From positions 1 through 35,083 of the forward strand of contig CATISI010000129.1 of the NCBI GenBank assembly GCA_949538025.1: a DNA stretch of 35,083 nt. The letters run 5' to 3'. A program made the translations under genes and the position numbers. Under the pieces are notes generated by a model, which had not been told where the DNA came from, did no database searches, and saw nothing but the letters and a program-made list of their open reading frames with translations. How positions within the stretch are numbered: the first letter of the stretch is position 1; each line of letters opens with the position of its first letter. Of this stretch, positions 1 to 32,017 are shown one piece after another. The stretch comes from Candidatus Poseidoniaceae archaeon (GTDB lineage: Archaea; Thermoplasmatota; Poseidoniia; Poseidoniales; Poseidoniaceae).

Positions 1-309
1 ATCTTCGCCTTCATCTTCGGATTGAGCCAACTCCTCTTGGTTTGGAACATCATCTACTCCGGAAAGAACGGTGAGAAGGCAGGTAAGGACCCATGGGGCG
101 GTTGGTCGCTTGAGTGGTCCACCACTTCTCCACCACCTACACCTTCCTTCCACGTCATTCCTACGCAGCGCGACATGAACGAGATCTACGGCCACCATGC
201 TGAAGACTCGATGAAAGAGAAGTTGTGGAAAGGCAAGAAGAAAGGCGATGCAGCCAAGAAATCCACTGTAGTGAGTGCTGTACTTTCCACATCAGGGGAG
301 GAGATCTGA
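1..309 (+). CDS. Cytochrome c oxidase / heme-copper oxidase subunit I, C-terminal fragment (5' truncated by window edge)
   Basis: Open frame from base 1 (IFAFIFGLSQLLLVWNIIYSGKNGEKAGKDPWGGWSLEWSTTSPPPTPSFHVIP...) matches the typical subunit I C-terminus (DPW...LEW..SSPPP..NF). Directly followed by subunit III. Confidence 0.87.
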   Translation: MFAFIFGLSQLLLVWNIIYSGKNGEKAGKDPWGGWSLEWSTTSPPPTPSFHVIPTQRDMNEIYGHHAEDSMKEKLWKGKKKGDAAKKSTVVSAVLSTSGEEI

Positions 310-1655
310 TGGGCGGAGGAGGCGGCAGCGACGTCAAGAACGCTGTCTGGATGCGTGCTCTGATCATGGCAGGTATGATTCTCGGTTTTGCCGTGGTCTC
401 ATACGTCGGTCTCGGTGTTGTTGTTGCAGATATGAAGCATCACACCTGGGAAGACGAAGAGTACCACTACAAGGAAGCGAAGTCAGAATGGCAAGAGGCC
501 GTCGATGCTGGTGAAATCCAAAGCGATGACAAGAATGCTGATCTCTACAAGGCCAAGGAAGAAGCCCATCATCACGAGATTGATGCGCATCTCTCCTATC
601 TCACCTACCGAGTTGCTGGATTGGCGATTCTCTTCGTTGGAATCATCTTCACAGCCTTCTTGGTCATCAGTGGAATCATGAATTCCTCACGACCTGATGA
701 GCATCACGATGACCACCACGGTCATGACGACCACGAACACCATGGTTCGGCTTCGCCAATCGTCTTCTCGTTCGGTTGTCTGTTGTTCCTCCTCGGATTC
801 CCTGACTTCGCTGACGGTCTGCATGGCCTGATGATGGGAAGCGCCAAGGGAACTATCGCTGACCTCTCTGTATCGATGATTGGATTGACCGTCGTCACTG
901 TTGGTATTGCCAACTGGTGGCGAGAGGACCTTCCTTTCAATGGCTACGGTGAGCAACTCGCAACTTCTGACCCGTTTGCTGGACAACACATCCGCAAGGC
1001 GGGTATCTGGGTCTTCTTGATGTCTGAAGTCATGGTCTTCGCTACCTTCTTCTCATCGTACCTCCGAATGCGTACCGAGTGGTGCACAAAGTGGGCGCTC
1101 GATGACGGCAAGTGTACTCTTGCTGAAGGTGAATCCGTGGTCATGACCGCCTCGGATTACCTCCGACCAGGTGGTGCTGCTGGAACAGGTGACTTCTGGA
1201 CCATGCTTCCTGGAGCTGTCAACACCTTTGCGTTGATTATTTCCTCGTACACCATTGTCTTGGCACTCAAGGTTGCTAAGTCACACGATTACAAGGTGCC
1301 AAAGGGCATTCTTGGAAATTTGATGCCAACCAAGAAGGCAGCCATCCGCAACTACCTCATCATCACCCTCGCTTTGGGTACAATGTTCATTGTTCTCAAG
1401 CTCGTTGAGTGGAGCCACCTCATCGCAGAAGGCTTCACCGTCGGAACAGAACAGGGTTCAATCTTCTATGTGGCAACCGGTGCACACGGTGTTCACGTCT
1501 TTGCTGGATTGTTGGTCATGCTCTACATGATCTTCAAAGCCGACACGGTTGAGTGGGACGAGGAGAACGCACAAGGAGTCGAATACTTCGGGCTCTACTG
1601 GCACTTTGTCGATTTGGCTTGGGTAGTCATCTTCCCAGCATTCTATCTGTATTGA
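309..1655 (+). CDS. Heme-copper (cytochrome c) oxidase subunit III with N-terminal two-helix extension and His-rich loop
   Basis: ATG at 309 overlaps the cox1 stop (TGATG). The C-terminal part has subunit III hallmarks (WWREDL...HIRKAGIWVFLMSEVMVFATFFSSYLR; GAHGVHVFAGL; YFGLYWHFVDLAWVVIFPAFYL). Confidence 0.9.
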   Translation: MGGGGGSDVKNAVWMRALIMAGMILGFAVVSYVGLGVVVADMKHHTWEDEEYHYKEAKSEWQEAVDAGEIQSDDKNADLYKAKEEAHHHEIDAHLSYLTYRVAGLAILFVGIIFTAFLVISGIMNSSRPDEHHDDHHGHDDHEHHGSASPIVFSFGCLLFLLGFPDFADGLHGLMMGSAKGTIADLSVSMIGLTVVTVGIANWWREDLPFNGYGEQLATSDPFAGQHIRKAGIWVFLMSEVMVFATFFSSYLRMRTEWCTKWALDDGKCTLAEGESVVMTASDYLRPGGAAGTGDFWTMLPGAVNTFALIISSYTIVLALKVAKSHDYKVPKGILGNLMPTKKAAIRNYLIITLALGTMFIVLKLVEWSHLIAEGFTVGTEQGSIFYVATGAHGVHVFAGLLVMLYMIFKADTVEWDEENAQGVEYFGLYWHFVDLAWVVIFPAFYLY

Positions 1656-1664
1656 GGTGAAATT

Positions 1665-2030
1665 ATGGGCGAACACAAGTTGATTATGGGCAAAGACATT
1701 TACTTCTGGAACTTCATCGTGTTGATGCTGTTTACATTGTTTGAAGTTGGAGCGGTTTTCTTCGAAGAATGGCCGGGAACAGACATTCCGATTTCACTGA
1801 CGACCGTTTGGGCAATCCTCATCGTTGTCGGTATTGTCAAGGGATTCGGTATTGGCGCGTTCTTCATGCACCTTTGGGACGATCCTCGAATCTACCTTCG
1901 AGTTGCACTGTTCCCAACAATCTTCGTATTGCTGATGCTCTGGGGAATTGGCCTCTCCAACCCTGAGGGCGTAACTGGGCTTCCAGGATGGTGCACGCCA
2001 AACTGGGATTCACTCGTTACTGAACGGTGA
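1665..2030 (+). CDS. Cytochrome c oxidase subunit IV-like (prokaryotic) small membrane protein
   Basis: 121 aa with three predicted TM helices (FWNFIVLMLFTLFEVGAVFF; IVKGFGIGAFFMHLWDDPR), immediately downstream of cox3. Confidence 0.78.
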   Translation: MGEHKLIMGKDIYFWNFIVLMLFTLFEVGAVFFEEWPGTDIPISLTTVWAILIVVGIVKGFGIGAFFMHLWDDPRIYLRVALFPTIFVLLMLWGIGLSNPEGVTGLPGWCTPNWDSLVTER

Positions 2031-2117: not shown

Positions 2118-3680
2118 ATGGAGAATATGGTAATCGACAGGTCAAGCAAAGCGAGGGCGCTCTCGGCTTACACAATTGTAGCCTGTCTCATGTCAGTGGC
2201 TCTGATTGGAGCCCCAGTCTCTGCATACAATGGGATACAACTCAGTTATGCCAGTGTTGGGAACTTCACATTGGTCGATCAGAACAATTCTGAATACAAG
2301 TTGTCGGATGCAACAGAAGAAATTGTTGTTATCTCGTTCTTCTTTACCCGATGCCCTGATGTTTGCCCAGTCATTACGCAGAATCTAAAATTAGTTCATG
2401 ATACACTACCAGAAGAACTTCAAGACAACGTAGGTTTCGTTGCAATCACACTCGATCCCAAGTATGACACCCCTGAAGTTCTGACCGAATACATGGATCG
2501 ACATGGTGTAGACTGGCCTCACCTTACCGGTCCAACCGAGGATGTCAAGGACGTCTGGTCACGCTTCGCCATCTATGCCGAAGAATACGTCACTGATGCA
2601 CATGATGACAACGTCAGCGACATGGAAGGTCAAGTTCATGACTCAAGTGTCGTCTACGTTCGACCTGATGGTACGGCTGAGGAACTGATGTACCTTCCAA
2701 CGGGCATGACCTTGACTTCTGCAGCTGCTGCTGAAGCAGGTTGGTCGCTCAACACGTCGGACACACAATACGGCACGATGATTAACGGAATCGAAGGCTA
2801 CGATTCACCAGCAGACTGGAGTTGGTGGTGGAGTCTCAAATTGTTCGATGAGGCAACACAACGTTGGGAAGATTCCCCCGTTGGTGTTGATTCCGTGAAC
2901 GCCCTCGAGGAAACCCACCTCGCATGGTATGCGACCAGTGCAAACATCAGCCTCCTCGAACCGCCAATAGGCGATACGCCGAGCGTACAAGTCGTCTTCC
3001 CGGACAACACCACATCCTTCACGAATGTTTCCACATTCACTGGTTACCACCTAACGCAAGGTGCCTTCGATGGCGCTGAAATCGACGTTGACATTCAGAA
3101 CAGTCAGTTTGGCCACTTTCTGAACAGCATCGACAACGTATCCGCTCCAGCCGACTGGAGTTGGTACTGGGAACTTCACACATGGAACGACACCTCAACA
3201 CAGTGGGAAGACTCCACGGTTGGTATGGATGGAATCGATCAGCCGATGGCCATCGCTTGGGCTTCCAACAACACGAGCAACGATGCAATACCACTTCCAG
3301 GCTTTGCCGTCGTTGAAGACAGCGAGTGCAATGGACATGGATGGATCATGGGATCAGGCAGTCGAGCGCATTGCATGTGCGACGCTGGCTACGAATGGGC
3401 CGAAGACGATATGCTCACCTGCATTCCTGTTGAATCCGAACCTGAATACACCGTTGGACACTTTGCTTACACCTACATCCTCGATGAAGACAAGAAGCCT
3501 CGTGTTCGCTACGTTGACGATTCATGGCTCGCATCCGATTTCGTTGAAGATGTTGTCGAACTCGCTGAACGAGAAGGAATCATCTCGAATGAATCGGAAG
3601 GCATCCCTTCGGTTGGAATCCTTGTCTCTGTCGCAGTCGTTTCAATGGCTGCCATTTCCCTGCGCTCAAAATCTGAGTAA
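2118..3680 (+). CDS. SCO1/SenC-like copper chaperone/thioredoxin-fold protein with two DUF4430-like repeats, an EGF-like Cys segment and a C-terminal TM helix
   Basis: Signal peptide, FFFTRCPDVCP (CxxxC), ITLDPKYDTPEVL and VHDSSVVYVRPDG are SCO motifs. Two internal repeats (SPADWSWWWSLKLFDEATQRWEDSPVGVDS / APADWSWYWELHTWNDTSTQWEDSTVGMDG), a C-x14-C-x-C segment and a C-terminal TM follow. Confidence 0.82.
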   Translation: MENMVIDRSSKARALSAYTIVACLMSVALIGAPVSAYNGIQLSYASVGNFTLVDQNNSEYKLSDATEEIVVISFFFTRCPDVCPVITQNLKLVHDTLPEELQDNVGFVAITLDPKYDTPEVLTEYMDRHGVDWPHLTGPTEDVKDVWSRFAIYAEEYVTDAHDDNVSDMEGQVHDSSVVYVRPDGTAEELMYLPTGMTLTSAAAAEAGWSLNTSDTQYGTMINGIEGYDSPADWSWWWSLKLFDEATQRWEDSPVGVDSVNALEETHLAWYATSANISLLEPPIGDTPSVQVVFPDNTTSFTNVSTFTGYHLTQGAFDGAEIDVDIQNSQFGHFLNSIDNVSAPADWSWYWELHTWNDTSTQWEDSTVGMDGIDQPMAIAWASNNTSNDAIPLPGFAVVEDSECNGHGWIMGSGSRAHCMCDAGYEWAEDDMLTCIPVESEPEYTVGHFAYTYILDEDKKPRVRYVDDSWLASDFVEDVVELAEREGIISNESEGIPSVGILVSVAVVSMAAISLRSKSE

Positions 3681-3724: not shown

Positions 3725-3809
3725 GCGGAGGTCGCATAGCCAGGTATTGCGCCGGATTTGAAATCCGGTGTCTTATGACTCGGGGGTTCAAATCCCTCTC
3801 TCCGCGCCA
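3725..3809 (+). tRNA. tRNA-Ser (anticodon TGA), long variable arm, encoded CCA
   Basis: Acceptor GCGGAGG (3725-3731)/TCTCCGC (3799-3805), discriminator G 3806, CCA 3807-3809. Anticodon arm CCGGA-TT-TGA-AA-TCCGG (3752-3768). T-arm GGGGG-TTCAAAT-CCCTC. Extra-long variable region as in class II tRNA. Confidence 0.93.
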
Positions 3810-10726: not shown

Positions 10727-13700
10727 ATGGAGGAGGACGGTCAAGACCACGACTCAGTGGAAGACGATGTCCTCCGTCAGAAAGAATTCCGCCGAGGCGG
10801 GGGGATCGACCTCGGCCAGTTCATGATTCAAGAGCTTGAAAACGAAGTCATCGTAGAGGAGGCTGTTCCAGAGAAAGAAACGGATGAGGCCGTTGGAGAG
10901 ATTGCCGCCTTGTTTAGTTCTGAAGACGAGCAAACGGTCGAGCCGGGCGCCATCAAACGTGATGGAACTGTTGATGAAGCCGCAGCACCGGATAGTGTGA
11001 CCGATATGGCTGTTCATGGCGAGCGGCGGCTCGGGTACGGCCTCCTTGCCGGCATGGTCCTTGTTTGGTCCGTTTTGGGTTGGGTTGTTGGAACCGCATT
11101 ACCTCCGTTTCTTGGAGGACCATTGCTCATCATCATGGGTCTCTCTGGGTTATGGGCTGGAGAAAAATGGATTCCAAATCCAACCATGCATCTACTCGGT
11201 GTGACTTGGGTCATCATATCGATGAAAATCCTCTACGGATTTGCTCTTGACGTCCATCACTGGGGATGGTTGGATGCTTCCCCGCTTGGTGCGGATCTTT
11301 CGCTTGGTATCTTCTTGCTCGTTTTGATTGGGTTCAACATCCTCATCGCTCAGCGTCACGATGATGACGCCATTGCTGCACAAGCAACGTTGGTCTTACT
11401 CGCACTTGGGAGCGCCACGGGAGCACTGTACGACGATCTGGGTGTTGCAGGGATGATTCTGCTTGGCACCTTGTCCATGCATGGTCTCGCCCTCCATCGA
11501 AAGTCTGGAAATCTTGCAAGTCTCGGTATTGCCGTTTCCTATCTTTGGATCGGTTTGCATGCCTTTTCCAACGATTGGACCATCGTGAGCATTGAGATTG
11601 TTTCGTTCGATGATGATCTTCTCTTGTTCATGCTGATGTTCGCTGTGACTGCAACCAATGCCGTAATGGCGACTCAGTTCCACAAAGCGGACAATTGGTT
11701 CTCGGCTGCAGCCAAAGCCCTCGGTCTCGGTAAACCAGGATTGTGGGCCATCTCCGTTGGTCTAGGAATGATTGGAGCGTTGCTTTCAATTGCTGCAAAT
11801 CGGGACGAAACAGGGTACGCACTCGCTCAACTACTCTTGTTGATGAGCGCCTTTGGCGGCTCCTATCTAGCAGTTCGTGGTGTTGAATGGAAACGCCTCG
11901 CACCGTTCATTTTGTTCCCAGCACCGTTCCTGTTGATCCTCGTCATTCTTCTCAATCAGGAAGTCTTCACCGTCGACATTGCCAATCTAAGCGCTTACAG
12001 CATCTATGCCATCCTAACAGCTCTTCTCACATCCATCGCACTACTTCGCAATCAGCAGGCTGTTTCGGATCACGTTCTGTGGATGGGTGGCATCATCATC
12101 GTCATCCTCCTGACCATTCTGATTCCAGCGGAAACCGACGGCTGGCGACTCCTCACCTCCCAAGCGACGGTCTGGCTCGGCCTTGCATGGCTCGGCGTCC
12201 AGCGCCAATCCCCGTCCATCTCCGGTGTTGCTGTCTTGATGCCATGGGTTTGGTTGTTGATGTTTGCAACTGATGTCGAATCGCGCATGTTCTCGAACGA
12301 TTTTATTCCAGTCGTTCTCGACGAGCAGCACGTTGCAGCATGGATGCTGCTGCTCATCGTTCAGCAACTGTATGTCAACCTCAGCCAGGGTCAAGCGACA
12401 TTGAACTTAGCTGGACGATTGGCTGGTTTGAGCGAGCTCGGCGCTCGAGCTCGTGATTCTGGACTGTTGCAATTGTGGAACCTTTCGTTCGTTCTTTCAC
12501 TCGTTTCCGTATGGGGCATCACGCGTGTCGGAGGCATGCCTGCATGGGGTCTTATCGGCATTATGGCGGCCATTCTTGTGTTCCATGGCACCTTGGTTGC
12601 ACTTGGGCAACATCGTGGACAACCGAGGACGATGTTGGTTGCATGGAGCATCTTTGCACTCCACTTTGGGTGGAAATTCGGCCATACGTCGATGTTTGCT
12701 GCAACGATGGTCGCTGGATGTTCCTTGATGTTGGTCCATACCGATCGCTTCCTGAGTGACAGAGACAACGCTAAGCGAAACCAAACTAACAGTATCGTCA
12801 CCTATCAATTGCTTGTCATGAGCGCCCTGTTGGCCATTCCAGCACTGAGGAACGATGCTTCACTCGTACTCACTAATGCCGATTGGTTCCCACAAGATGG
12901 ACAAGATGCCATGATGGTGGGCCTCATCTCTTTGGGAACCCTGTTCCATTACCTGAGTCGTGTCACAAAGATGGACAAATTGCTTCCACCAACACTCGCA
13001 ACGGTCGCAATGATTGGTTTGATGTTGTTCAGTGGTACTGCACTCGAGCTTCAATTACTGACCATCATGGCATTGCTCAGTTTCGTTGGATCCGGCGCGT
13101 ACCTTGCCTTCCAAGGCGAATGGCGCTCTGGTATGCGTTCTGTTGCTCGACGTGATGAGCGATTGCGAGAAATCGAAGCCAAACAACGCACGCAAATTGC
13201 GTACAATCAAACGAGTGAACAGACCGGAGTTCAGTTCATCGACCCGAAGATGATTGAACTCGCTGAAAAACAGAAAAAACGTGCTAAGCGCGCTGGTAGC
13301 ACTGGTGAGATGGATCTTGAATTAGGTGATATTCAACATCGTCCAAGCATCGTTCTGTCCTTCATTGGTGTGACAATTTTTGCTTCAACGTCCTTTGCCT
13401 ATCTCAGTGGTTCTGGCATGATTGCCTTGTTGCTGATGGGAGGGATGTCGTTCCTCTTCATCAGTTTGGCACGGCTGCGTGCCGATTCACTCAATCTCCG
13501 CTTGGTTGACGTTCTTGGCGTCGAAATCCCAATCGCCGTCACAATGGCTGGTTTGGTGTTGGTTCATCTCGCGTCACGGATGACGCAAGGCACAGTCTTT
13601 CTCAATGAGCAGTTCGATTTACTGACTCTCATTTCAGGCTTGGTCGCTTTGGCTGGTTTTGCTCTGGTTGGTCGAAACGATTTGGGCGTACGGATTCCGA

Positions 13701-14524
13701 ACGTCCTCGACATGGTGGTCGGTTTGTTGGTCATCGATCGCTTGTTCGGTGTTCTCGCCGGAGGCGAGCTCCCTATTCCAACACTGACGAATCCGCTCGA
13801 ATTTGATGAGATGGCATGGATGGTACCTGTCATCGGTAACGAAGTTCTGTTGATTGGTGCTGCCCTGCTGTGGAACTGGGTTGAACGTGAACGTCAAAAA
13901 CGCAATTTGCAAGACCATCGCGGTGCTCTCGGTCGGATCTCTTTCGGATTGTCCATCCTTCTCCTTTCGTTTGGACCAGCAGCCATGGTTGCCCTTACGC
14001 TCATGTTTTTGCGCGGATGGGAATGGAAGCAACCAGCCGTCTTGATGATCGGATTCATCGTTCTTCCAGTCGCATTCAACGAACTCGTGTGGTGGGTTGA
14101 AGATGAATTCAGTCTTACCTTATTCGAAATGTGGATGTCATCCGTTGCCATTGGAACGCTCGGTCTCATCGCTGGAGGGGTTGCAACCTACACCAATCAG
14201 GGCCTGTGGGTTTCAGCATCGCTCTGGGTCGCTCAGGTGCTCTTCATCGTCACAGGACTTCTCTCGCCGTCCCTGCTGTTGTTCGTCCTGTTGACGCTCG
14301 CAATGTCCACAACTTCGTGGGTCATCGGCGTCCTTACCTTACGTCGTGGATGGCGAATTGTTGGATTCTTTAATCTCGTTCTTGCATGGATTGTTGCCAG
14401 CGTACTCATCTTCCAAGGTATGACATCATTTGCCGCTCTTGCTTTACTGCTCGCAACTGCGGCCTTGCTTGCCATCATCACCTACCTGACGCAATCGCGC
14501 GACGAATTGCTCGCATCTCAATGA
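10727..14524 (+). CDS. Very large polytopic membrane protein of unknown function (1265 aa, roughly 30 hydrophobic segments)
   Basis: Acidic N-terminal region of about 100 aa, then near-continuous hydrophobic helices, interrupted by one basic loop (RSVARRDERLREIEAKQRTQIAYNQTSEQTGVQFIDPKMIELAEKQKKRAKRAG). Confidence 0.85.
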   Translation: MEEDGQDHDSVEDDVLRQKEFRRGGGIDLGQFMIQELENEVIVEEAVPEKETDEAVGEIAALFSSEDEQTVEPGAIKRDGTVDEAAAPDSVTDMAVHGERRLGYGLLAGMVLVWSVLGWVVGTALPPFLGGPLLIIMGLSGLWAGEKWIPNPTMHLLGVTWVIISMKILYGFALDVHHWGWLDASPLGADLSLGIFLLVLIGFNILIAQRHDDDAIAAQATLVLLALGSATGALYDDLGVAGMILLGTLSMHGLALHRKSGNLASLGIAVSYLWIGLHAFSNDWTIVSIEIVSFDDDLLLFMLMFAVTATNAVMATQFHKADNWFSAAAKALGLGKPGLWAISVGLGMIGALLSIAANRDETGYALAQLLLLMSAFGGSYLAVRGVEWKRLAPFILFPAPFLLILVILLNQEVFTVDIANLSAYSIYAILTALLTSIALLRNQQAVSDHVLWMGGIIIVILLTILIPAETDGWRLLTSQATVWLGLAWLGVQRQSPSISGVAVLMPWVWLLMFATDVESRMFSNDFIPVVLDEQHVAAWMLLLIVQQLYVNLSQGQATLNLAGRLAGLSELGARARDSGLLQLWNLSFVLSLVSVWGITRVGGMPAWGLIGIMAAILVFHGTLVALGQHRGQPRTMLVAWSIFALHFGWKFGHTSMFAATMVAGCSLMLVHTDRFLSDRDNAKRNQTNSIVTYQLLVMSALLAIPALRNDASLVLTNADWFPQDGQDAMMVGLISLGTLFHYLSRVTKMDKLLPPTLATVAMIGLMLFSGTALELQLLTIMALLSFVGSGAYLAFQGEWRSGMRSVARRDERLREIEAKQRTQIAYNQTSEQTGVQFIDPKMIELAEKQKKRAKRAGSTGEMDLELGDIQHRPSIVLSFIGVTIFASTSFAYLSGSGMIALLLMGGMSFLFISLARLRADSLNLRLVDVLGVEIPIAVTMAGLVLVHLASRMTQGTVFLNEQFDLLTLISGLVALAGFALVGRNDLGVRIPNVLDMVVGLLVIDRLFGVLAGGELPIPTLTNPLEFDEMAWMVPVIGNEVLLIGAALLWNWVERERQKRNLQDHRGALGRISFGLSILLLSFGPAAMVALTLMFLRGWEWKQPAVLMIGFIVLPVAFNELVWWVEDEFSLTLFEMWMSSVAIGTLGLIAGGVATYTNQGLWVSASLWVAQVLFIVTGLLSPSLLLFVLLTLAMSTTSWVIGVLTLRRGWRIVGFFNLVLAWIVASVLIFQGMTSFAALALLLATAALLAIITYLTQSRDELLASQ

Positions 14525-19083: not shown

Positions 19084-19185
19084 GTCCCTCTGTAGAGAAT
19101 ATCACGTTCAAGCGTTCCGATGACCTGTGTTTGCACGCGCACAGAAAGACCACAACCCCTAATAAGATATCAACCTCGGAGGAGT

Positions 19186-22100
19186 ATGAGTTCTGAATTG
19201 CGCGAGAAAAGGGTCGTGAGTTGGCTTCTCATCTTCCTCATGGTTGGGATTGTCCTCTCGCCGTTGAGCGCGCACGCCGCAGATTCAGATGGTGACGGCG
19301 TGGACGATTCTATCGACGATTGCCCGTGGGCCTATGGAACCTCGACCACAGACCGCGATGGTTGTCCTGACAAAGACGGCGATGGTACGTCCGATTTCAA
19401 CGATGGATGGGCGATTGGAAATCCAAACTTCCAAAATGAATTCACAACAACGTCCAGTAGCGAATACTTTGGCGTTGATTTCTCACCCGATGGCGAAATG
19501 ATTGTTACTGCATCCGAAGATGGGTTTGTCCGGGTTTGGAACGTGACATCGCACATTAATCTCCGATCTGCGAACGCTGGAACGGATGTTAATGACGTTG
19601 CGTGGTCGGACGATGGACAGTACATAGCCGCTGCAATCAACGACGATACGATCAACATTTACTATGCAAGCAATTTGTCCTCGCTCCACGGTGCGATCAG
19701 CGTCGATGTTGGAGGAGGGGATCAAGTCAATTCTGTTGATTTCTCACCGGATGGTTCGTTGGTTGCAGTAGCCATTGGTCGTTCTGGAAACAGTGGTACG
19801 AACGGGGAAATCACGCTTATCAAAACCTCAGATGGAACCGAATTTGGTAACATGAATCCCAACGGAGAAGATCGATTCTACGATGTTGCATTCTCCCCTG
19901 ACGGAAAGCACGTAGCAGCTGCTGGAAATGGTGATTTCTTTGTCGTCAATGTGACGACGTCTGCAACCGTTTGGAGTATTTCCGACCCAAGCGCCTCAGT
20001 AAACGCCATTGCATGGTCGCCAGATGGAAACTACATCGTCATGTGCGGTGGCTGGGAAGGGAGTTCTTCGAGTGTTGACATGTACGAATTCACTGGTTCG
20101 TCTTGGTCTCGTATCTGGCAGAAAACGATGTCGACATCCTGTGCTTCAGTTGACTTTTCCTCAGACAGCACGCAAATCGCTGTTGGAATGTATTGGTACC
20201 AAACCGACGGAAATACAGCCTATGTCTATCAAGTTGATACAGGTACACAAGTTGATTCTGTAAGTGGTCCAAGGCCCGGCAACTGTCAGTCTGGAAGTAA
20301 CAACAACTGCGGCACCATCTACGGCATTTCTTGGAGTCCCGACAACACGCGTATCGTCACCGCCCACGGCAGAAACGACGAGGGTGTTTACTACTGGTTT
20401 GCTGATATCGACGAGGACAACGATGGTTACAACACCACCGACCAAGGCGATGGAATCGTTGACGCCTTCCCAACAGAAGGAACCCAATGGGACGACAGCG
20501 ATGGTGATGGCTACGGTGACAATCCTGCACCGGCGTTCCAACCTGACGAATGTCCTAACGACTGGGGCAACAGCACTGAAGACCGATTTGGATGCGCAGA
20601 TTCGGATGGGGACGGTTGGTCCGACCTCAACGACTGGGCTCCGAGCAATAAGGAGCAATGGGTCGATGCTGACAACGACGGATATGGTGACAACTACCTC
20701 TACGAAATTGCATCCAATCAACTCCACATCAACCAACGTGGAGATGCCTTCCCGGACGATGCTACACAATGGAACGACACCGATGGTGACGGTTACGGCG
20801 ACAACTACGAAGACATCTCATGGAACGAGTATCGTGCGCCAGAGTGGCCTGGTGAAATCATCGTTGGTGCACAAAACATCGACGTGTTTCCACTTGACCG
20901 AACCCAGTGGAAAGATACCGACGGAGACTGGGTTGGTGACGAACAAATGAGCGACAGAGCCGATGGATGTCCCACCATCTGGGGTGATTCCGTATACGAT
21001 CGTCTCGGCTGTGCTGACACCGACGGAGACGGATGGTCCGATCCTGACGGGAACTGGCCTGCACGAGCAGATTGTTACGGAGCAGATGCCTTCCCGAACG
21101 ATGCTACACAATGGTGCGATGAAGACAACGACGGCTTTGGTAGTAACCCTGATGGAAACAGTTCAGATGATTGTCCAAACCAAGCCGGACCGTCCACGGA
21201 AGACCAATACGGATGTCCTGACCGAGACGGTGATGGTTATTCAAACACAGGCGATCCGTTCCCCGATGACGGCACGCAATGGGAAGACTCAGACGGCGAC
21301 AACTATGGTGACAACCCTGATGGAAACAATCCTGACTTCTTCCCCAACGATCCTTCACAATGGCGAGATTCCGATGGTGATGGCTACGGAGACAATCCTG
21401 GTGGTACCAATGGCGACCGCTTCCCGAACGACCCTACGCAGTGGTCTGATGCTGACAATGATGGCTATGGAGACAACTTTGTCGATACGGATGGCGATGG
21501 CGTTTCGGAAGGTAACTCCGACGTCTGTCCCCAGACCTATGGTGAATCCAACTCAGCAACTTCTCGTGGATGTCCTGATTCCGATGGAGACGGCTTCACC
21601 GATCCAGAAGACGCATTCCCGGACCAACCGCTCCAATGGGCTGATCAAGACGGTGATGGTTTTGGCGACAACGTTCAGTTCACCGATGGTGACGAGTGTA
21701 TCGATGTCTACGGCAAGAGCACGGAGAACGGTGTGCAAGGCTGCCCTGATTCCGATGGAGACGGTCATGCCGACCCCTTCGGTGACTTCGTTGCGAAGCC
21801 GGATTGCACCGGTGCCGATGCCTTTCCGAGCGATCCACTACAGTGGTGCGACAACGACGGAGATGGTGTTGGTGACAACTACGTCTTCACGAACATCACC
21901 GTTCCTGACGAAGAGAACACCGGGTTGATGATTGAGCTCTGCGAACAAATTGGCGACGCCTTCCCAAACGATATTACACAATGGTCCGATATGGACTGCG
22001 ATGGTTATGGTGATAACCAGACTGGCATTTCGCCAGATGCTTTCCCATTACGGAAGACTCAGTACAAAGACAACGATGGTGATGGTTATGGCAACAGCAT

Positions 22101-22653
22101 TATTCAGGGTGCATACCAGAGTGATGATTGTACGAACGTTTACGGAACATCAACCATCGATCGATACGGTTGTCCTGATAGCGATAACGACGGAGTTTCA
22201 GACGCAACGGACCCGTGTATTTGGGACCCGACTGTTTCAGTAGGAGTTCCAGGACAAGTCGACTGCCCAATTTCAGAAGATCCGAACAAGGCCGATGACG
22301 AAGAGGCGGTTGCTGAAGTTGAGGCAAAATCATCCAATGTGGTGCTCTATGCAATGGGAGGTGTCATCGCATTCATGCTTGCGGCTATTCTGGTTGCTAT
22401 GCTTGCTCGACAATCAAGTCGCAACAGGCTCATGCGTGAGCGAGCCATCGAGCGAAAGGCTGAGGAACAACTCATGGATGAAGAAGAACGCCGACAACAA
22501 TGGATTGACTACTACGTCGCCAATGGTGATTTCGACAAAGCACGTGAACTTGGTTGGGTCGACCCTGCATCGCTTCCTGCATGGAAGCAGCATGAAATTC
22601 AACAACAAGAAGCACTGCAAGCATCCATCCCGACCATGCTTGATCTGGATTGA
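19186..22653 (+). CDS. Surface-anchored protein: WD40-like beta-propeller plus about 22 TSP type-3 (Ca-binding) repeats, C-terminal TM and cytoplasmic tail
   Basis: Signal peptide (WLLIFLMVGIVLSPLSAHAADSDGDG), WD40-like blades (VDFSPDGEMIVTASEDGFVRVWNV), tandem DSDGDGYGDN repeats, TM VVLYAMGGVIAFMLAAILVAML. Start at internal ATG 19186 chosen because the signal peptide follows it. Confidence 0.87.
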   Translation: MSSELREKRVVSWLLIFLMVGIVLSPLSAHAADSDGDGVDDSIDDCPWAYGTSTTDRDGCPDKDGDGTSDFNDGWAIGNPNFQNEFTTTSSSEYFGVDFSPDGEMIVTASEDGFVRVWNVTSHINLRSANAGTDVNDVAWSDDGQYIAAAINDDTINIYYASNLSSLHGAISVDVGGGDQVNSVDFSPDGSLVAVAIGRSGNSGTNGEITLIKTSDGTEFGNMNPNGEDRFYDVAFSPDGKHVAAAGNGDFFVVNVTTSATVWSISDPSASVNAIAWSPDGNYIVMCGGWEGSSSSVDMYEFTGSSWSRIWQKTMSTSCASVDFSSDSTQIAVGMYWYQTDGNTAYVYQVDTGTQVDSVSGPRPGNCQSGSNNNCGTIYGISWSPDNTRIVTAHGRNDEGVYYWFADIDEDNDGYNTTDQGDGIVDAFPTEGTQWDDSDGDGYGDNPAPAFQPDECPNDWGNSTEDRFGCADSDGDGWSDLNDWAPSNKEQWVDADNDGYGDNYLYEIASNQLHINQRGDAFPDDATQWNDTDGDGYGDNYEDISWNEYRAPEWPGEIIVGAQNIDVFPLDRTQWKDTDGDWVGDEQMSDRADGCPTIWGDSVYDRLGCADTDGDGWSDPDGNWPARADCYGADAFPNDATQWCDEDNDGFGSNPDGNSSDDCPNQAGPSTEDQYGCPDRDGDGYSNTGDPFPDDGTQWEDSDGDNYGDNPDGNNPDFFPNDPSQWRDSDGDGYGDNPGGTNGDRFPNDPTQWSDADNDGYGDNFVDTDGDGVSEGNSDVCPQTYGESNSATSRGCPDSDGDGFTDPEDAFPDQPLQWADQDGDGFGDNVQFTDGDECIDVYGKSTENGVQGCPDSDGDGHADPFGDFVAKPDCTGADAFPSDPLQWCDNDGDGVGDNYVFTNITVPDEENTGLMIELCEQIGDAFPNDITQWSDMDCDGYGDNQTGISPDAFPLRKTQYKDNDGDGYGNSIIQGAYQSDDCTNVYGTSTIDRYGCPDSDNDGVSDATDPCIWDPTVSVGVPGQVDCPISEDPNKADDEEAVAEVEAKSSNVVLYAMGGVIAFMLAAILVAMLARQSSRNRLMRERAIERKAEEQLMDEEERRQQWIDYYVANGDFDKARELGWVDPASLPAWKQHEIQQQEALQASIPTMLDLD
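20408..22250 (+). repeat. Tandem TSP3-type coding repeats (FPxDxTQWxDxDGDGYGDN and CPxxxGxSTxDRxGCPDSDGDGxxD units)
   Basis: Repeated Asp/Gly-rich codon blocks; near-identical stretches such as gatgccttccc(g/a)acgatgctacacaatgg recur near 20746 and 21088. Confidence 0.88.
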
Positions 22654-25330: not shown

Positions 25331-28180
25331 GTGTTTAGCGTAGGATGTGTCGACGTGTCGGATGAGATGAAGACGACGGATGAAGTTGCATGGCAACAAG
25401 CATGGGACAATGCGAACGTCTTTGCTTCGAGCGATGATGCATCAAAACCGAAATTCTACTGTTTGGAAATGTATCCCTATCCCTCTGGAAAAATGCACAT
25501 GGGTCACGTTCGAAACTATTCGATTGGTGATGCTGTTGCCCGATACAAGCGAATGAAAGGCTTCAACGTCCTCTACCCTATGGGATTTGACTCATTTGGA
25601 ATGCCAGCCGAAAATGCAGCCATTGCTGAAGGCGGACATCCTCATGACATTACCGAGAAGAACATGGCATCGATTACGGAACAGATCAAGCGCATGGGAT
25701 TTTCGTACGATTGGAGTCGTTTGGTCAAAAGCCACGATCCGAATTACTACAAGTGGAACCAATTATTCTTCACGCGCTTTTTCAAATCTGGACTCGCCTA
25801 TCGTGAGTTTGCTCCAGTCAATTGGTGTGAATCCTGTTCCACGGTCCTTGCGAACGAACAAGTCAAAGCGGGCCGATGTTGGCGATGCAATGGTCCTGTC
25901 CGACAAAAGGACATGAGTCAGTGGTTCATTGACATCACCAAGTATGCGCAACAGTTGCTCGATGGTCTCGATACCATCGAATTTCCAGAAAGTGTTCGCT
26001 TGATGCAAGAAGACTGGCTGGGTCGTTCCGAAGGAGCAGAAATCGAATTCGGTATTGAAGGGAGCGAAGAAACCATTCGCGTTTTCACAACCCGCCCTGA
26101 CACGCTTTTCGGGGTCACATTCATCACCCTCGCACCAGAACATCCGCTCGCTGAAAAGCTAGTCAGAGGAACAGAATACGAAGCCGGCTGGAAGGCTATG
26201 CACGATGTCTATGCGAATATGAGTGAGTTCGATCGAATCAAGAACCTCAACAAAAAGGAGGGTGTTTCACTTGGGCGTTTCGCTATCCACCCGCTTACTG
26301 GTGAAAAGATCCCAATCTGGGCAGGTAATTTCGTTCTCGCCACATACGGAACAGGTGCTGTCATGGCTGTTCCAGGTCATGATGAACGTGATTTCGATTT
26401 TGCTAAGACGTACGATTTGCCCATCAGGCGTGTGCTGATCGAAAACGAGAATGACGATGCTGATGAAGAACTTGAATCGGCATACACGGAAGATGGATAC
26501 ATGGTTCATTCTGGTAAGGACGGATTCGATGGCCAGTTCGGGGATGCTGCGCGTACTTCTGTCATAGATGCCCTTGAAGTTGCTGGTAGGGGCGATCGTC
26601 GAATCAATTGGAAGATTCGCCCTTGGCTCATCAGCCGCCAGCGCTATTGGGGAACACCGATTCCAATCATTCACTGTGAAGGCTGTGGAGCCGTACCTGT
26701 TCCTGAAGATCAACTTCCAGTTGAACTTCCACGAGATGTAGTCTTTGATGGCAAAGGGAACCCATTGGAAACATCAGAATCCTTCCTTAACGTATGTTGC
26801 CCAGAATGTGGCAAGGATGCTCGACGTGAGACCGATACGATGGATACGTTTGTTGATTCATCGTGGTACTTCTTGCGTTACACCGATGCTACCAACCTCG
26901 AACAGTGGTACAATGCGGATATTGCCGACTATTGGATGAACGTTGACTTCTATTGTGGTGGCATTGAACACGCCCAAATGCACTTGATTTACGCTCGGTT
27001 CTACACGAAAGCACTCCGTGATCTTGGCTTCCATAGCATCGATGAGCCATTCAACGAATTGCTTTGTCAAGGGATGGTCAATAAGAGCGCCCCCTTCTGT
27101 GAAAGCTGTTCTGTGACTCTCTCGGTCGATCACGCTGGCTCACCATGTCCACATTGCAATTCACCACTCGGTGAGCGCTCGGCCAAGATGAGCAAGTCAC
27201 TTGGAAACACCGTTTCTCCTGAACAAATGATTGAACAATTTGGTGCGGATACCGTTCGATTGTTCATTCTCTTTGCTGCGAATCCAACCGCTGGAATGGA
27301 TTGGTCCGATTCAGCTGTTGAAGCCAATCATCGAGTGATGCAACAACTGCAAACCCTGCCAGATCAACTCCTCGGATGGAACAAGCCTGCAAATTCCATC
27401 GATGCTTGGATGATGGCCCGACTCCGACAACGCCTCCAACAATGGTCCGATGCAATGGACCGATACGACTTGCGTCGGGCTGTCGAATGCTCCCATTATG
27501 ACATGGTCAAGGACATCAACTGGTACGTACGTCGTGGAGGCGGCAACGCTGAAGTTGGACGAACATTGCTTCATTCTTGGACCCACATGGTCGGCATCGC
27601 AACACCTCACCTCGCAGAAGATTGGTGGGCGGAACTTGGTGGTGAGGGACTCCTCGCTGCACATGTTATGGACGACATTCAAGCCGTCAGCGAAGAAGAT
27701 CAGGCACTCCTCGATGGAGAAGCATTGATTCGAGATCTCCTCGAACAAGCACGAAAAGTTCGTACTGTTGCTGAGCGACACATCGATGGGGAACCAACAT
27801 TGCTCACCATCGTCACCTCTGCACCATGGAGAAACACGATGGCAGAAATGGCATTGGCCCATCTCTCTGAAGGAAACAACGTCAAGACCTTCATGGGCAT
27901 TTTGACCCAATCCGAACTCGCTCAAGGTGAAACACGGGGTGAGCGACTCGGATTCTGGAACAAGCGCATGCTACCTCAAGTGTTCAAGTGGGACGATGAA
28001 AAGAAGCGAATTCTTCTTTCAACACTTGATGAAACCCAGGTCTATGCCAACGCTTCTGATTTTATTGCAGGAGAACTCGGTCTTGCATCGGTACGCATTG
28101 TCCGTGGTGAAAGCGAAGAGGATGAGACTGGGAAAGCTGGCGTTGCAATGCCACTTTCACCTGCATTCATCTATGCTTGA
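25331..28180 (+). CDS. leuS: Leucyl-tRNA synthetase, bacterial type (start GTG 25331 or ATG 25367)
   Basis: MYPYPSGKMHMGHVRNYSIGDAVARYKRMKGFNVLYPMGFDSFGMPAENAA, VFTTRPDTLFGVTFI, ATYGTGAVMAVPGHDERD and KMSKSLGNTVSPEQMIEQFGADTVRLF. Confidence 0.95.
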   Translation: MFSVGCVDVSDEMKTTDEVAWQQAWDNANVFASSDDASKPKFYCLEMYPYPSGKMHMGHVRNYSIGDAVARYKRMKGFNVLYPMGFDSFGMPAENAAIAEGGHPHDITEKNMASITEQIKRMGFSYDWSRLVKSHDPNYYKWNQLFFTRFFKSGLAYREFAPVNWCESCSTVLANEQVKAGRCWRCNGPVRQKDMSQWFIDITKYAQQLLDGLDTIEFPESVRLMQEDWLGRSEGAEIEFGIEGSEETIRVFTTRPDTLFGVTFITLAPEHPLAEKLVRGTEYEAGWKAMHDVYANMSEFDRIKNLNKKEGVSLGRFAIHPLTGEKIPIWAGNFVLATYGTGAVMAVPGHDERDFDFAKTYDLPIRRVLIENENDDADEELESAYTEDGYMVHSGKDGFDGQFGDAARTSVIDALEVAGRGDRRINWKIRPWLISRQRYWGTPIPIIHCEGCGAVPVPEDQLPVELPRDVVFDGKGNPLETSESFLNVCCPECGKDARRETDTMDTFVDSSWYFLRYTDATNLEQWYNADIADYWMNVDFYCGGIEHAQMHLIYARFYTKALRDLGFHSIDEPFNELLCQGMVNKSAPFCESCSVTLSVDHAGSPCPHCNSPLGERSAKMSKSLGNTVSPEQMIEQFGADTVRLFILFAANPTAGMDWSDSAVEANHRVMQQLQTLPDQLLGWNKPANSIDAWMMARLRQRLQQWSDAMDRYDLRRAVECSHYDMVKDINWYVRRGGGNAEVGRTLLHSWTHMVGIATPHLAEDWWAELGGEGLLAAHVMDDIQAVSEEDQALLDGEALIRDLLEQARKVRTVAERHIDGEPTLLTIVTSAPWRNTMAEMALAHLSEGNNVKTFMGILTQSELAQGETRGERLGFWNKRMLPQVFKWDDEKKRILLSTLDETQVYANASDFIAGELGLASVRIVRGESEEDETGKAGVAMPLSPAFIYA

Positions 28181-30870
28181 ACGTCTTCTTCAATAGGCTC
28201 TGAGGGTGCCTCAAGTGCTGGCTCGGTTTCAAGGGTTGGAACCGCTTTCTGTTGTGATTGATTCGTCGGTGCTTTGACCGGCTTGAATGTGAAGTAACCG
28301 GCAACACAGGCAAGAGCAATTGCAACCAAAATCAGAACTTGGTTGATTCCGAACGATGACTCAGAACTTTCGCCCTTGTTCTCAATGACAATCAAAGTAC
28401 AACCATCCGCATCGACTTGCTCCCCAAGTAAGGTTGATGGGCACAAATCATCATCATTGAGGATTCCATCAAAATCCGTATCGGCTTGTTGAGACGAACA
28501 TCCCGCACCATCGACGACGGTACTCAGTGGTGTCCTCGGACAAATGTCGGCTTCGTTGAGAACACCATCTGCATCATCGTCTACGTCTTCTTCACCATCG
28601 ACGCATCCATCCGAATCAAAGTCTTGGGAAGGCAACACTGGTCCGACGAGACCACGGGGGCAGAGGTCGAAGATGTCCTCGAATCCATCGTCATCGTCAT
28701 CCTCGTCTTCTTCATCGTCATGGCAGCCATCTTGGTCGCGATCGAGGAATCTGTCGGTCGCATTCCAGTCACGGTACCCCTTAGGACACATATCAAGCTG
28801 ATTTGAACCAATCATATCGAGCATCAAATCATTGTCATCGTCCATGTCGTTAATGCTGTCTTGACAACCATCACGGTCCCAATCGTTCATTTCTGTTGAA
28901 TCCCAAAGAGCAAGATCTCGCGGGCAACCATCTTCGATGTTGACGATACCATCGCCATCCTCATCCAAATCGCACGCATCCCCAATGAAATCACCATCAA
29001 GGTCTTCCTGTCCAGCGTTTGACGTGCTTGGGCAGTTGTCGCGTTGGTCAACAAAACCGTCCTCATCCGTGTCGAAATCCGAACATCCATCTCCTTCAAC
29101 ATCGGTTTCGGAGGTTGAAACCCATCCGATTGGCCCCTTTGGACACGTGTCGAGGTGGTCATAGACGGTGTCGTTGTCATCGTCAAAATCCTCATCTGCA
29201 TCCCGACATCCATCGCTGTCATGATCGGTTGAAGCACTGCTTGTCCAACCGATTTCGCCTTGTTGACAAATGTCAAGATCGTCGGCAATGCCGTCATTGT
29301 CATCGTCATCATCGCAGACATCGCCAAACATGTCGGATTCGAAGTTTGCTTGGTCTGCATTGGATACTCTTGGGCAATTGTCGATACCATCGAGAATACC
29401 GTCTCCATCGATATCGGTCTCATAGTGCCAAACACCGCCGTCCTGTCCTCCAACGGAAACAACGGAATGATTACCATACATGCCTGCATCTTCAAAGGAG
29501 AAAGCGATGAGAGAACCACCTGATGCGGACGAAACCATCTCATAGACACGGTCTCGACCATCGCTTCCACCGGTGAGTGCCCACAACCAACCATCATCAA
29601 CATCGTATTCGCCCATGAAAATATCGGTTCCGAAGTAACTCGAGTCATCATCGTAATCGGTCAAGATCTCTCCGCCGAGCGTGAACGCATACGTCGTCAC
29701 GCCAGCGTAAATCAATGATCCAGATGCTGTTTGATACGCTGCACTGTACATATCGTAACCGGAACCGCCCTCAACGATGAGTCCGTCCCAAGCACCATTG
29801 GTGGTGATATCAGCGCGGAAAGCATCGAACCATTGTGTGGCCTCACTGTAATCCGAGCCAAACGTCGAATTGCCCTCAATGGTTCCGTAGACTTGCACAT
29901 CCAATCCTGCACCTGCAACGCAACCGTTGACGAGATCATCGCCTGTTCCGCCTGCTTGTTGCATCCACTGCCAACTGTTGGCATCGTACTTGGCCACAAC
30001 GATGTCGCCACCGCCATTTGAATCAACAGAACCGAACTCATCGAATGTGAGTTGCCCAATGAATGTAAGGGCGACAAATGTATCACCAACGCTGTTTTGA
30101 CAAAAGCCTCCAAATGGCTCGACACCGTCTTCTGTGAACGCAGTAAAACCGTTGCTAAAAATTCCAAATTCATCAAAAATCATTACTGCAAGGCTCGTTT
30201 GAGATCCGCCAGCAAAGAGGGTTTGATTCATCTCAAGAAGGTCCTTGAACAATACACTCACATGGATTTGATCGTCCCCATCAACAAACATATCGAACAT
30301 CAAAATTTCTTGTTGGTTGGCGATGGAAACAGCCCATTGCCATCCGGTTTCAACATCGTATCGAGCGATGTAGGCATTGCCCTCATCGGAATTTGCTGCT
30401 TTATCCAACGTCGGTAGTGATCCCAACGTCATGTTGCACTGAAGGCCTGCACTGCCGAGGCAATAATTGCCTGCGATGATGAAATCACCATCGCTCATCA
30501 AAGCAAGTACATCCACTGTATCGACGCCAATACTCCCAAATGATTCACTGAAATTCCATTCATTCGTTTCGTTTGAGATAGCAATGAAACCATCGACATC
30601 TTCCAACCCAAGTTGATTGGATTCATGTCCGTTATCTCCAATGAGGATGGAGGCTGTGAAACTACCTCCAACAAGTACAGAGTTGTTTTCCAAAGAGGCG
30701 AGGGTTTTGATGGAGTCTTCTCCAAAGCCACCAACCGAAGCCGCCCATCCCAATTGTTCGGGTTCTTCGTCGTTGAATTGCGGAGTAATTTCAGTATCCA
30801 GGACCTCTGCTGGAGTGTTGGGCATCGTTGCAAGAAGGAGCGCAAAAACGATGAACAATGGACGAAGCAT
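28171..30870 (-). CDS. Surface protein with SBBP/delta-60-like propeller repeats and TSP type-3 repeats, C-terminal TM
   Basis: Signal peptide MLRPLFIVFALLLATMPNTPAEV (start at 30870 rather than 30972). Repeats of type GWAASVGGFGEDSIKTLASLENNSVLVGGSF. Asp/Cys-rich TSP3 section (DTDEDGFVDQRDNCPSTSNAGQEDLDGDFIGDACDLDEDGDG). TM INQVLILVAIALACVAGYFTF. Confidence 0.83.
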   Translation of the reverse strand: MLRPLFIVFALLLATMPNTPAEVLDTEITPQFNDEEPEQLGWAASVGGFGEDSIKTLASLENNSVLVGGSFTASILIGDNGHESNQLGLEDVDGFIAISNETNEWNFSESFGSIGVDTVDVLALMSDGDFIIAGNYCLGSAGLQCNMTLGSLPTLDKAANSDEGNAYIARYDVETGWQWAVSIANQQEILMFDMFVDGDDQIHVSVLFKDLLEMNQTLFAGGSQTSLAVMIFDEFGIFSNGFTAFTEDGVEPFGGFCQNSVGDTFVALTFIGQLTFDEFGSVDSNGGGDIVVAKYDANSWQWMQQAGGTGDDLVNGCVAGAGLDVQVYGTIEGNSTFGSDYSEATQWFDAFRADITTNGAWDGLIVEGGSGYDMYSAAYQTASGSLIYAGVTTYAFTLGGEILTDYDDDSSYFGTDIFMGEYDVDDGWLWALTGGSDGRDRVYEMVSSASGGSLIAFSFEDAGMYGNHSVVSVGGQDGGVWHYETDIDGDGILDGIDNCPRVSNADQANFESDMFGDVCDDDDDNDGIADDLDICQQGEIGWTSSASTDHDSDGCRDADEDFDDDNDTVYDHLDTCPKGPIGWVSTSETDVEGDGCSDFDTDEDGFVDQRDNCPSTSNAGQEDLDGDFIGDACDLDEDGDGIVNIEDGCPRDLALWDSTEMNDWDRDGCQDSINDMDDDNDLMLDMIGSNQLDMCPKGYRDWNATDRFLDRDQDGCHDDEEDEDDDDDGFEDIFDLCPRGLVGPVLPSQDFDSDGCVDGEEDVDDDADGVLNEADICPRTPLSTVVDGAGCSSQQADTDFDGILNDDDLCPSTLLGEQVDADGCTLIVIENKGESSESSFGINQVLILVAIALACVAGYFTFKPVKAPTNQSQQKAVPTLETEPALEAPSEPIEEDVQA
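28420..29430 (-). repeat. TSP3-type Asp-rich coding repeats
   Basis: Repeated DxDxDGxxDxxDxCP motifs in the minus-strand translation. Confidence 0.8.
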
Positions 30871-30970
30871 AGTCTTGTGATGAACTGCCACTTCATGAAG
30901 GTGTTGCGTTGCAGTCCAGTCAGCCCATTGTGACGATTGGTTCAAAGACGGTCGAGGTCGAGGTCCACTC

Positions 30971-32017
30971 ATGTCCCAAGGTCGTAAACCAAAACGTGGC
31001 GGTCAGGGGCGGCAGCGAAACCGTCGTCGGTACGGCGGACCGCGCAAGGCCAATCTCATTGAACAATCCAAGAAGGAACTTCTCGAATACAATCTACGAG
31101 CCAACGACCGATTCGATTATGAAAAAACCGGCCTCCAACCGGTTGGCCTGCCGGATGATTCATCCAATGCAAAATCGTTCTCGTTCACATGGAAATGCAA
31201 TCCTGTTCGGCTCTCGGATGAGGAGAAAATGGCCGATTTTGTTGTCCGTAGGGGCGAGTTTGGTTGGCTTGATGACGATCGTGTCGATGAAATCGCAGAG
31301 TTTGCTAAACCGCTTTCGATTTCCGCAGATCAAGCATTGTCGCTTCGCTCAGCTCTTCTCCAACAGAAGACTGTCTACGGCCACTCAACCATGCGCAACC
31401 GCGGGCGTCAAATCCATCGCGATTACAAACAAGGGATGTCCGTGGTCGAATTATCAAAAAAATACGACTTCCCTCCAATGAACATCTTCCGGCAAATTCT
31501 TGCTGAGAAAGGATGGTCGAAGACGAAGATCAAAGAAGCCGTTCGGGCACCATCCCGATTTTCAACTCGTGAACGCAAAGAATTCGAAGCTGCTGAGGAA
31601 GCCGATCGAGTTTCCAACGTGGACCAAAGCGAGACGCATCTTCGTGCTGATGTATTCGAAACAATCCTTGCCGATTGGTTTGAGGAGCAAGGTGTACGAC
31701 TCCGCCGTCAGCCTGAACTTGTCAAAGAACAGTCAATTGAAATCGGTGGTCCAAAATTGACGCCAGATATTCTGTTCCTTGATCATGTTGAAATCAACGG
31801 TCAGCCAGTCGCTTGGATCGATGCAAAGCACTTCTATGGGGCCGATGTAGGATTCCAGCGCAAGAAGATGTCCAAGCAAATGATGCGTTACATCAACGAA
31901 TGGGGGAGTGGAGCCATTGTGTTCAGACACGGTTTCTCAGAAAACCTGTACATGGCTGGAGTGACCATGTTGGATGCCAGTCCACTGGACCTCACCGAAT
32001 TGCAGGATCGGCCTTAG
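30971..32017 (+). CDS. HTH and TPD-motif (PD-(D/E)xK-like) nuclease, CDIN1/C15orf41-like family
   Basis: KLTPDILFLDHVEINGQPVAWIDAKHFYGADV...QMMRYINEWGSGAIVFRHGFSE matches the TPD family pattern. Upstream HTH (IHRDYKQGMSVVELSKKYDFPPMNIFRQILAEKGWS) and basic Arg-rich N-terminus. Confidence 0.75.
   Translation: MSQGRKPKRGGQGRQRNRRRYGGPRKANLIEQSKKELLEYNLRANDRFDYEKTGLQPVGLPDDSSNAKSFSFTWKCNPVRLSDEEKMADFVVRRGEFGWLDDDRVDEIAEFAKPLSISADQALSLRSALLQQKTVYGHSTMRNRGRQIHRDYKQGMSVVELSKKYDFPPMNIFRQILAEKGWSKTKIKEAVRAPSRFSTRERKEFEAAEEADRVSNVDQSETHLRADVFETILADWFEEQGVRLRRQPELVKEQSIEIGGPKLTPDILFLDHVEINGQPVAWIDAKHFYGADVGFQRKKMSKQMMRYINEWGSGAIVFRHGFSENLYMAGVTMLDASPLDLTELQDRP

Follow-up and report, generated by a model that had tools for sequence, protein, structure and literature searches.

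The 520-residue protein encoded at positions 2118-3680 (+) of the window, a 35,083-nt stretch that constitutes a whole contig of an 84%-complete, 1.88-Mb Poseidoniaceae genome (a MAG), belongs to the SCO family and has a new architecture. Judged from sequence comparison, it comprises one SCO fold, split by an insert of about 270 residues that lies in the copper ('Sco') loop just before the copper-loop histidine, H448. We believe, with a probability of roughly 70%, that this split SCO would bind copper through C79, C83 and H448, that the inserted domains serve docking or gating from the copper loop itself, and that the protein transfers copper to the oxidase. No description of a split-loop SCO was found in the literature searched, of which coverage was partial.

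The 520-residue open reading frame is a genuine gene. It is a single frame, conserved in nearly all congeners, most of which encode full-length orthologs; the close records that carry names are mostly Candidatus Poseidoniales or Poseidoniaceae, with the closed Marine Group II chromosome CM001443.1 among them. An assembly or binning artefact, in which the frame would be chimeric, might be suspected of a contig from a metagenome-assembled genome that is 84% complete, but the same architecture, gene order and length recur in 77 other records, one of them the closed genome, and these rule out a chimera, leaving it a negligible chance. The gene is the final one of a cox operon and lies on the same strand as coxC (COX3; 225-1655 (+), Pfam COX3 4.3e-17) and the gene for subunit IV directly upstream (COX4_pro; 1665-2030 (+), Pfam 2e-10). 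That it adjoins cox genes had been recognized in the first-pass annotation, and a homolog survey bears this out: the gene forms an operon with cox1, cox3 and cox4, with cox4 directly upstream (5-169 nt) at 78 of 80 orthologous loci, cox3 also upstream at 79 of the 80, and the order cox2, cox1, cox3, cox4, SCO in CM001443.1. The COX2 of the same genome has the ligand motif for CuA, CAEYCGLQHSVM, and the usual target of an SCO is therefore available; the putative role of a specialised copper-insertion factor, proposed at first pass, is plausible.

A tRNA-Ser(TGA) gene lies directly 3' of the SCO gene (3725-3809 (+)). Elsewhere, the window encodes a 1265-residue frame with no match in Pfam or NCBIfam (10727-14524 (+)), a 1177-residue protein with WD40-type beta-propeller repeats (19120-22653 (+)) and a 933-residue protein that has thrombospondin type 3 repeats in four stretches (28171-30972 (-)). 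In two relatives (L060:9238-11565 and L062:10402-12813), COX1 is extended at its N-terminus, ahead of the oxidase domain, by about 240 residues that include a CxCHGG-type motif.

The two halves of the SCO fold are recognized separately. The first, residues 48-166 (2259-2615 (+)), matches PF02630 (SCO1/SenC) at 97.1 bits against a cut-off of 22.8 (1.1e-27), as well as SCOs in the PDB. It contains the copper-site cysteines C79 and C83 (CPDVC, 2352-2366 (+)) and the DPxxDTP motif (D113-P119), and lacks the copper histidine; the Pfam match covers profile positions 2-119 of 134, and the end of the family model is therefore missing there. The second, residues 442-486 (3441-3575 (+)), consists of the H448 strand, a beta hairpin and the terminal helix, and was located with an HMM built from 11 SCOs that have no large insert. 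This plain-SCO model matches the protein twice, with model positions 3-167 falling on residues 13-172 and positions 190-235 on residues 439-484 (c-E 9.4e-11), and finds no match between residues 172 and 439, which argues for a single SCO fold split in the Sco loop. An HMM of the plain-SCO tails scores 32.5 bits at residues 444-484, where the best of 1000 shuffles reaches 8.0 bits. Likewise, a profile of 46 aligned same-class SCOs matches solved SCOs in two blocks, which lie next to each other in the chain of the known structure, as in 2k6v, where one block runs to residue 125 and the next begins at 130. Conservation was assessed in these 46 SCOs and in 77 further two-module orthologs: F74, T77, C79, C83, D113, P114, D117, W133, H448, W470 and D478 are invariant in the former, and C79, C83 and H448 (3459-3461 (+)) in all 77 of the latter as well. 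H448 aligns to the histidine of the PDB SCOs. What places the protein in SCO1/SenC is the PF02630 core, the CxxxC site and a distal Sco-loop histidine followed by a strand and a helix.

The predicted structure of the tail is in keeping with a single split fold. In the AF2 model of the full protein, two strands (451-455 and 461-466) and a helix (472-485) make up the tail, mostly at pLDDT 86-94; overall pTM is 0.49, and pLDDT drops below 50 at both joins (157-173 and 441-443). Foldseek searches with this model aligned mainly one stretch to SCOs, and for this reason could not show a split alignment. The model also has hydrophobic helices at both ends, consistent with the sequence: one at residues 9-29 (2142-2204 (+)), a signal or anchor, and one at residues 500-519 (3615-3674 (+)), a probable membrane anchor. 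An NCBIfam search gave no information on sorting signals or SCO subtype.

The first-pass annotation had described a normal SCO core containing CxxxC, DPxxDTP and VHDSSVVYVRPDG, followed much later by a second stretch, YTVGHFAYTYILDEDKKPRVRY, resembling the SCO histidine strand and terminal helix, and had left open whether the fold was interrupted by a large insertion or the histidine motif duplicated. The motifs are all present, with the histidine of VHDSSVVYVRPDG being H174 (2637-2639 (+)) and that of YTVGHFAYTYILDEDKKPRVRY being H448, and the likeness of YTVGHFAYTYILDEDKKPRVRY to an SCO tail is confirmed by the tail HMM, but the core is not a normal one: the Pfam match ends at residue 166, and VVYVR (177-181), directly after VHDSS, is the first strand of an inserted module when the modules are predicted alone. 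For a duplication, the first core would have to be complete with H174 and the C-terminal stretch would be a second copy of the tail. Indeed, VHDSSVVYVRPDG is loosely like an SCO histidine strand, and several relatives likewise have a histidine near the start of this strand. Yet H174, at the start of module 1, is conserved in just 17 of the 77 orthologs; the strand is part of module 1, and its counterpart in the alignment, strand 1 of module 2, has no histidine; a further module copy in a congener (L021) reads NASVVYVKPDG, again with no histidine; and the tail HMM finds no match around H174 (168-186). Module alignment, conservation, module fold and tail HMM together rule the duplication out at the level of sequence, and we consider it very improbable. 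The conservation of the histidines, the HMM matches and the PDB alignments instead identify the C-terminal stretch, and not VHDSSVVYVRPDG, as the SCO copper-loop strand and terminal helix, and this stretch (443-486, with H448) is the sole such element in the protein. Of the alternatives posed at first pass it is the interruption that stands: the first core is incomplete, the tail is predicted to be SCO-type, and the arrangement is conserved in relatives. H162 (2601-2603 (+)), at the N-side edge of the insert, is present in 77 of 77 two-module orthologs and in 27 of the 46 in the wider set.

Most of the insert consists of two tandem modules, at residues ~172-281 (2631-2960 (+)) and ~282-396 (2961-3305 (+)). 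The Trp-rich duplication noted earlier is real: the modules are homologous to each other (hhalign probability 99.8%, E 1.6e-29), and a 24-nt direct repeat at 2808/3147 further marks the second. Predicted alone from 72 sequences, the modules reach pLDDT 94 and pTM 0.87. Among solved structures, Foldseek matches them best to 3u7z, which is annotated as a putative metal-binding protein, and to 5no0, a transcobalamin beta domain (probability 0.99, E about 0.005-0.01). A DUF4430/transcobalamin-beta fold is thus predicted, and the relationship to DUF4430 suggested at first pass is supported by weak but consistent sequence matches, namely hhalign at 92% and Pfam DUF4430 (PF14478) matches in 8 of 46 members (best E 0.0013), although the window protein itself has no match above the gathering score. 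What sets these modules apart from DUF4430 domains is their occurrence as a Trp-rich tandem pair, below the Pfam cut-off, in the loop of another domain.

Between the modules and the SCO tail is a segment with four cysteines, C404, C419, C421 and C435 (residues 401-437, 3318-3428 (+)). All four, together with M411, H418 and M420, are conserved in 77 of 77 two-module orthologs, and the cysteines probably form disulphides. The first-pass reading of C-x14-C-x-C-x14-C was correct but for the last spacing, which is x13. Its 'EGF-like' label is plausible: the C-terminal half of the EGF pattern, CxC..GY..C, is present (CMCDAGYEWAEDDMLTC), while EGF-type Pfam matches, some members included, are weak, no curated EGF domain matches the segment above cut-off, and the six-cysteine pattern (C1-C3, C2-C4, C5-C6) is absent from this C-x14-C-x-C-x13-C arrangement. 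In comparison with EGF modules, the usual first pair of cysteines is missing and invariant methionines and a histidine are added. A search of 60 genomes with the 44-residue segment found it in SCOs and in one other secreted protein (G026:C130, 630 residues), which carries the same HCMC segment. An origin exclusive to SCOs would be mostly true of these genomes but is countered by this protein, from which the segment can be taken to be a mobile module.

Purifying selection on the insert matches in strength that on the SCO core: in comparison with the closest ortholog, the modules have dN/dS values of 0.009 and 0.046 and the core one of 0.034, and the EGF-like segment and SCO tail have no amino-acid change at all; beyond the closest ortholog pairs dS is saturated and the ratio loses its meaning. 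Across the class, the Sco loop ranges from 4 to several hundred residues and holds from 0 to 5 module copies. In 132 collected SCO proteins with both halves, the loop has the window-type content of two modules plus EGF-like segment in 87, one module plus the segment in 9, one module in 6, five modules plus the segment in 1, two modules with no segment in 1, a thioredoxin plus the segment in 7 and another domain plus the segment in 1; it is plain in 18, with the shortest being 4 residues. The insert is therefore dispensable in some relatives. The plain SCOs L038, L042, L045 and L195 nest inside inserted clades of a tree in which several deep nodes are weak, which makes losses of the insert likely and indicates that the SCO core exists with or without it. 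Matches to PF02412 reveal Ca-type TSP3 motifs in some plain or near-plain SCOs; the loop of L029 contains a His-rich run, and a 22-His loop insert is present in a relative.

Other members of the class illustrate how far this variation goes. A 766-residue congener SCO (L021:259-2592, also L088) has five module matches, and is a recent module amplification. In L192, L193 and L196-L199 (e.g. L196:3515-5008, minus strand), the Sco loop contains the EGF-like segment and a complete TlpA/ResA-like thioredoxin with CxxC, beside cox1-cox3-cox4; the thioredoxin-bearing form has a single origin in the tree (support 100/97), adjoins cox genes, and possibly provides an intramolecular reductant. These proteins come from a family, f3, that from kinship we take to be MGIII, and family f2 to be MGIIb. 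L200 (G051:C16) is an SCO of the thioredoxin-bearing group that comes from an f2 bin yet is nearly identical to the MGIII-like ones, and its contig may well be misbinned. Family f2 also has tandem SCO genes (L036, L037 and L039-L041 being the first of two adjacent): in one, the insert is acidic and TSP3-like and a conserved HHP precedes the histidine strand, and the other has a DUF4430-like module and/or the EGF-like segment.

The module is also found outside SCOs. The six non-SCO module proteins examined from Poseidoniaceae are ZnuA-like zinc-binding proteins with very His-rich loops (L205 and L209-L213), and these have long His-rich stretches, EF-hands and, set within the ZnuA domain, a DUF4430-like module. 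Five of them match the ZnuA profile in two separated stretches, of which the second begins near position 91-97 of the profile; the sixth, L212, is truncated by the end of its contig and shows the second stretch alone. Other Thermoplasmatota have the module together with PQQ-type beta-propellers, as well as in further secreted proteins.

A mechanism can be outlined from these observations and from what is established for SCO proteins, which bind copper through CxxxC and the Sco-loop histidine, and in which recognition through the Sco loop matters for copper transfer to COX2 (PMC6696091). At the outer surface of the membrane, the two parts would come together as an ordinary Sco fold, bind copper through C79, C83 and H448, and load it into the CuA site of the COX2 that this genome encodes. 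Attached to the mobile copper loop, the inserted domains would overhang the metal site and would most likely serve there for docking or gating, as an integral device that helps to engage the apo-oxidase or a copper donor; M411, H418 and M420 of the EGF-like segment may add ligands. The Sco loop of relatives takes unrelated metal- or redox-type inserts, including a ResA-like thioredoxin, and the clearest hint that partners are brought in cis by way of this loop comes from the thioredoxin inserted in a sister lineage.

We favor docking or gating over two other roles for the inserted domains. They could be generic cell-surface or binding modules that are carried along, for example as an envelope tether, with no role at the copper site; DUF4430-like modules in other secreted proteins of the phylum Thermoplasmatota, copy numbers of 1 to 5 and the existence of plain SCOs all fit such a role. 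However, the same loop is hit in all inserted SCOs, the modules are under strong purifying selection, and insertion into metal-binding proteins is repeated, which argue for a role linked to position and make a passive one unlikely. Alternatively, the insert could be an intramolecular copper store or donor in which M411, H418 and M420 bind Cu(I) and pass it to C79, C83 and H448, replacing pCuAC, a periplasmic chaperone. In this context, the full conservation of these residues and the four cysteines is suggestive, as are the relative with 22 histidines in its loop, the absence of pCuAC (PF04314) from 60 of 60 relatives in a search with positive controls, and the H..M..HxM motif of pCuAC (PMC6696091), of which H418-C-M420 provides the HxM; the resemblance is one of motif beside a Sco system, with no homology. 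Set against this, the cysteines are probably engaged in disulphides, HCMC is also found in a non-SCO secreted protein, several module-bearing SCOs have no EGF-like segment, and the absence of pCuAC may just be typical of archaea. Such a store strikes us as decidedly unlikely.

Regardless of the precise role of the insert, the protein retains the hallmarks of SCO1/SenC (2k6v, 4wbj/4txo, 1wp0), with CxxxC, DPxxDTP, copper-loop histidine, terminal helix, membrane anchor and cox neighbors, and differs in the ~270 residues before the histidine and in a probable C-terminal anchor besides the N-terminal hydrophobic segment. In Bradyrhizobium, TlpA reduces ScoI and COX2 (PMC6696091). TlpA is a separate membrane protein, whereas a thioredoxin of the TlpA/ResA type lies inside the SCO of the MGIII-like relatives; the window protein has none. 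One tentative idea, which we regard as doubtful, is that the Poseidoniia Sco loop is an evolvable socket, whose inserts supply in cis functions that are elsewhere those of separate proteins, with the module serving likewise at the metal-facing loop of ZnuA. If so, the contents of the socket would include DUF4430 modules, the Met/His/Cys EGF-like segment, a His-rich run, a Ca-type repeat and a ResA/TlpA-like thioredoxin, and the functions replaced would be those of a copper donor like pCuAC, a reductant like TlpA, and oxidase docking.

The copper loader of Sco, its reductant and its recognition of apo-COX2 are all still debated. Here, evolution has attached domains to the copper loop itself, in the MGIII-like lineage as much as an entire thioredoxin, and the roles of partners may thus be readable from natural fusions. 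The split fold also corrects domain annotation in the uncultured Poseidoniales (Marine Group II), one of the ocean's most abundant archaeal groups, in which Pfam-style searches see a truncated SCO.
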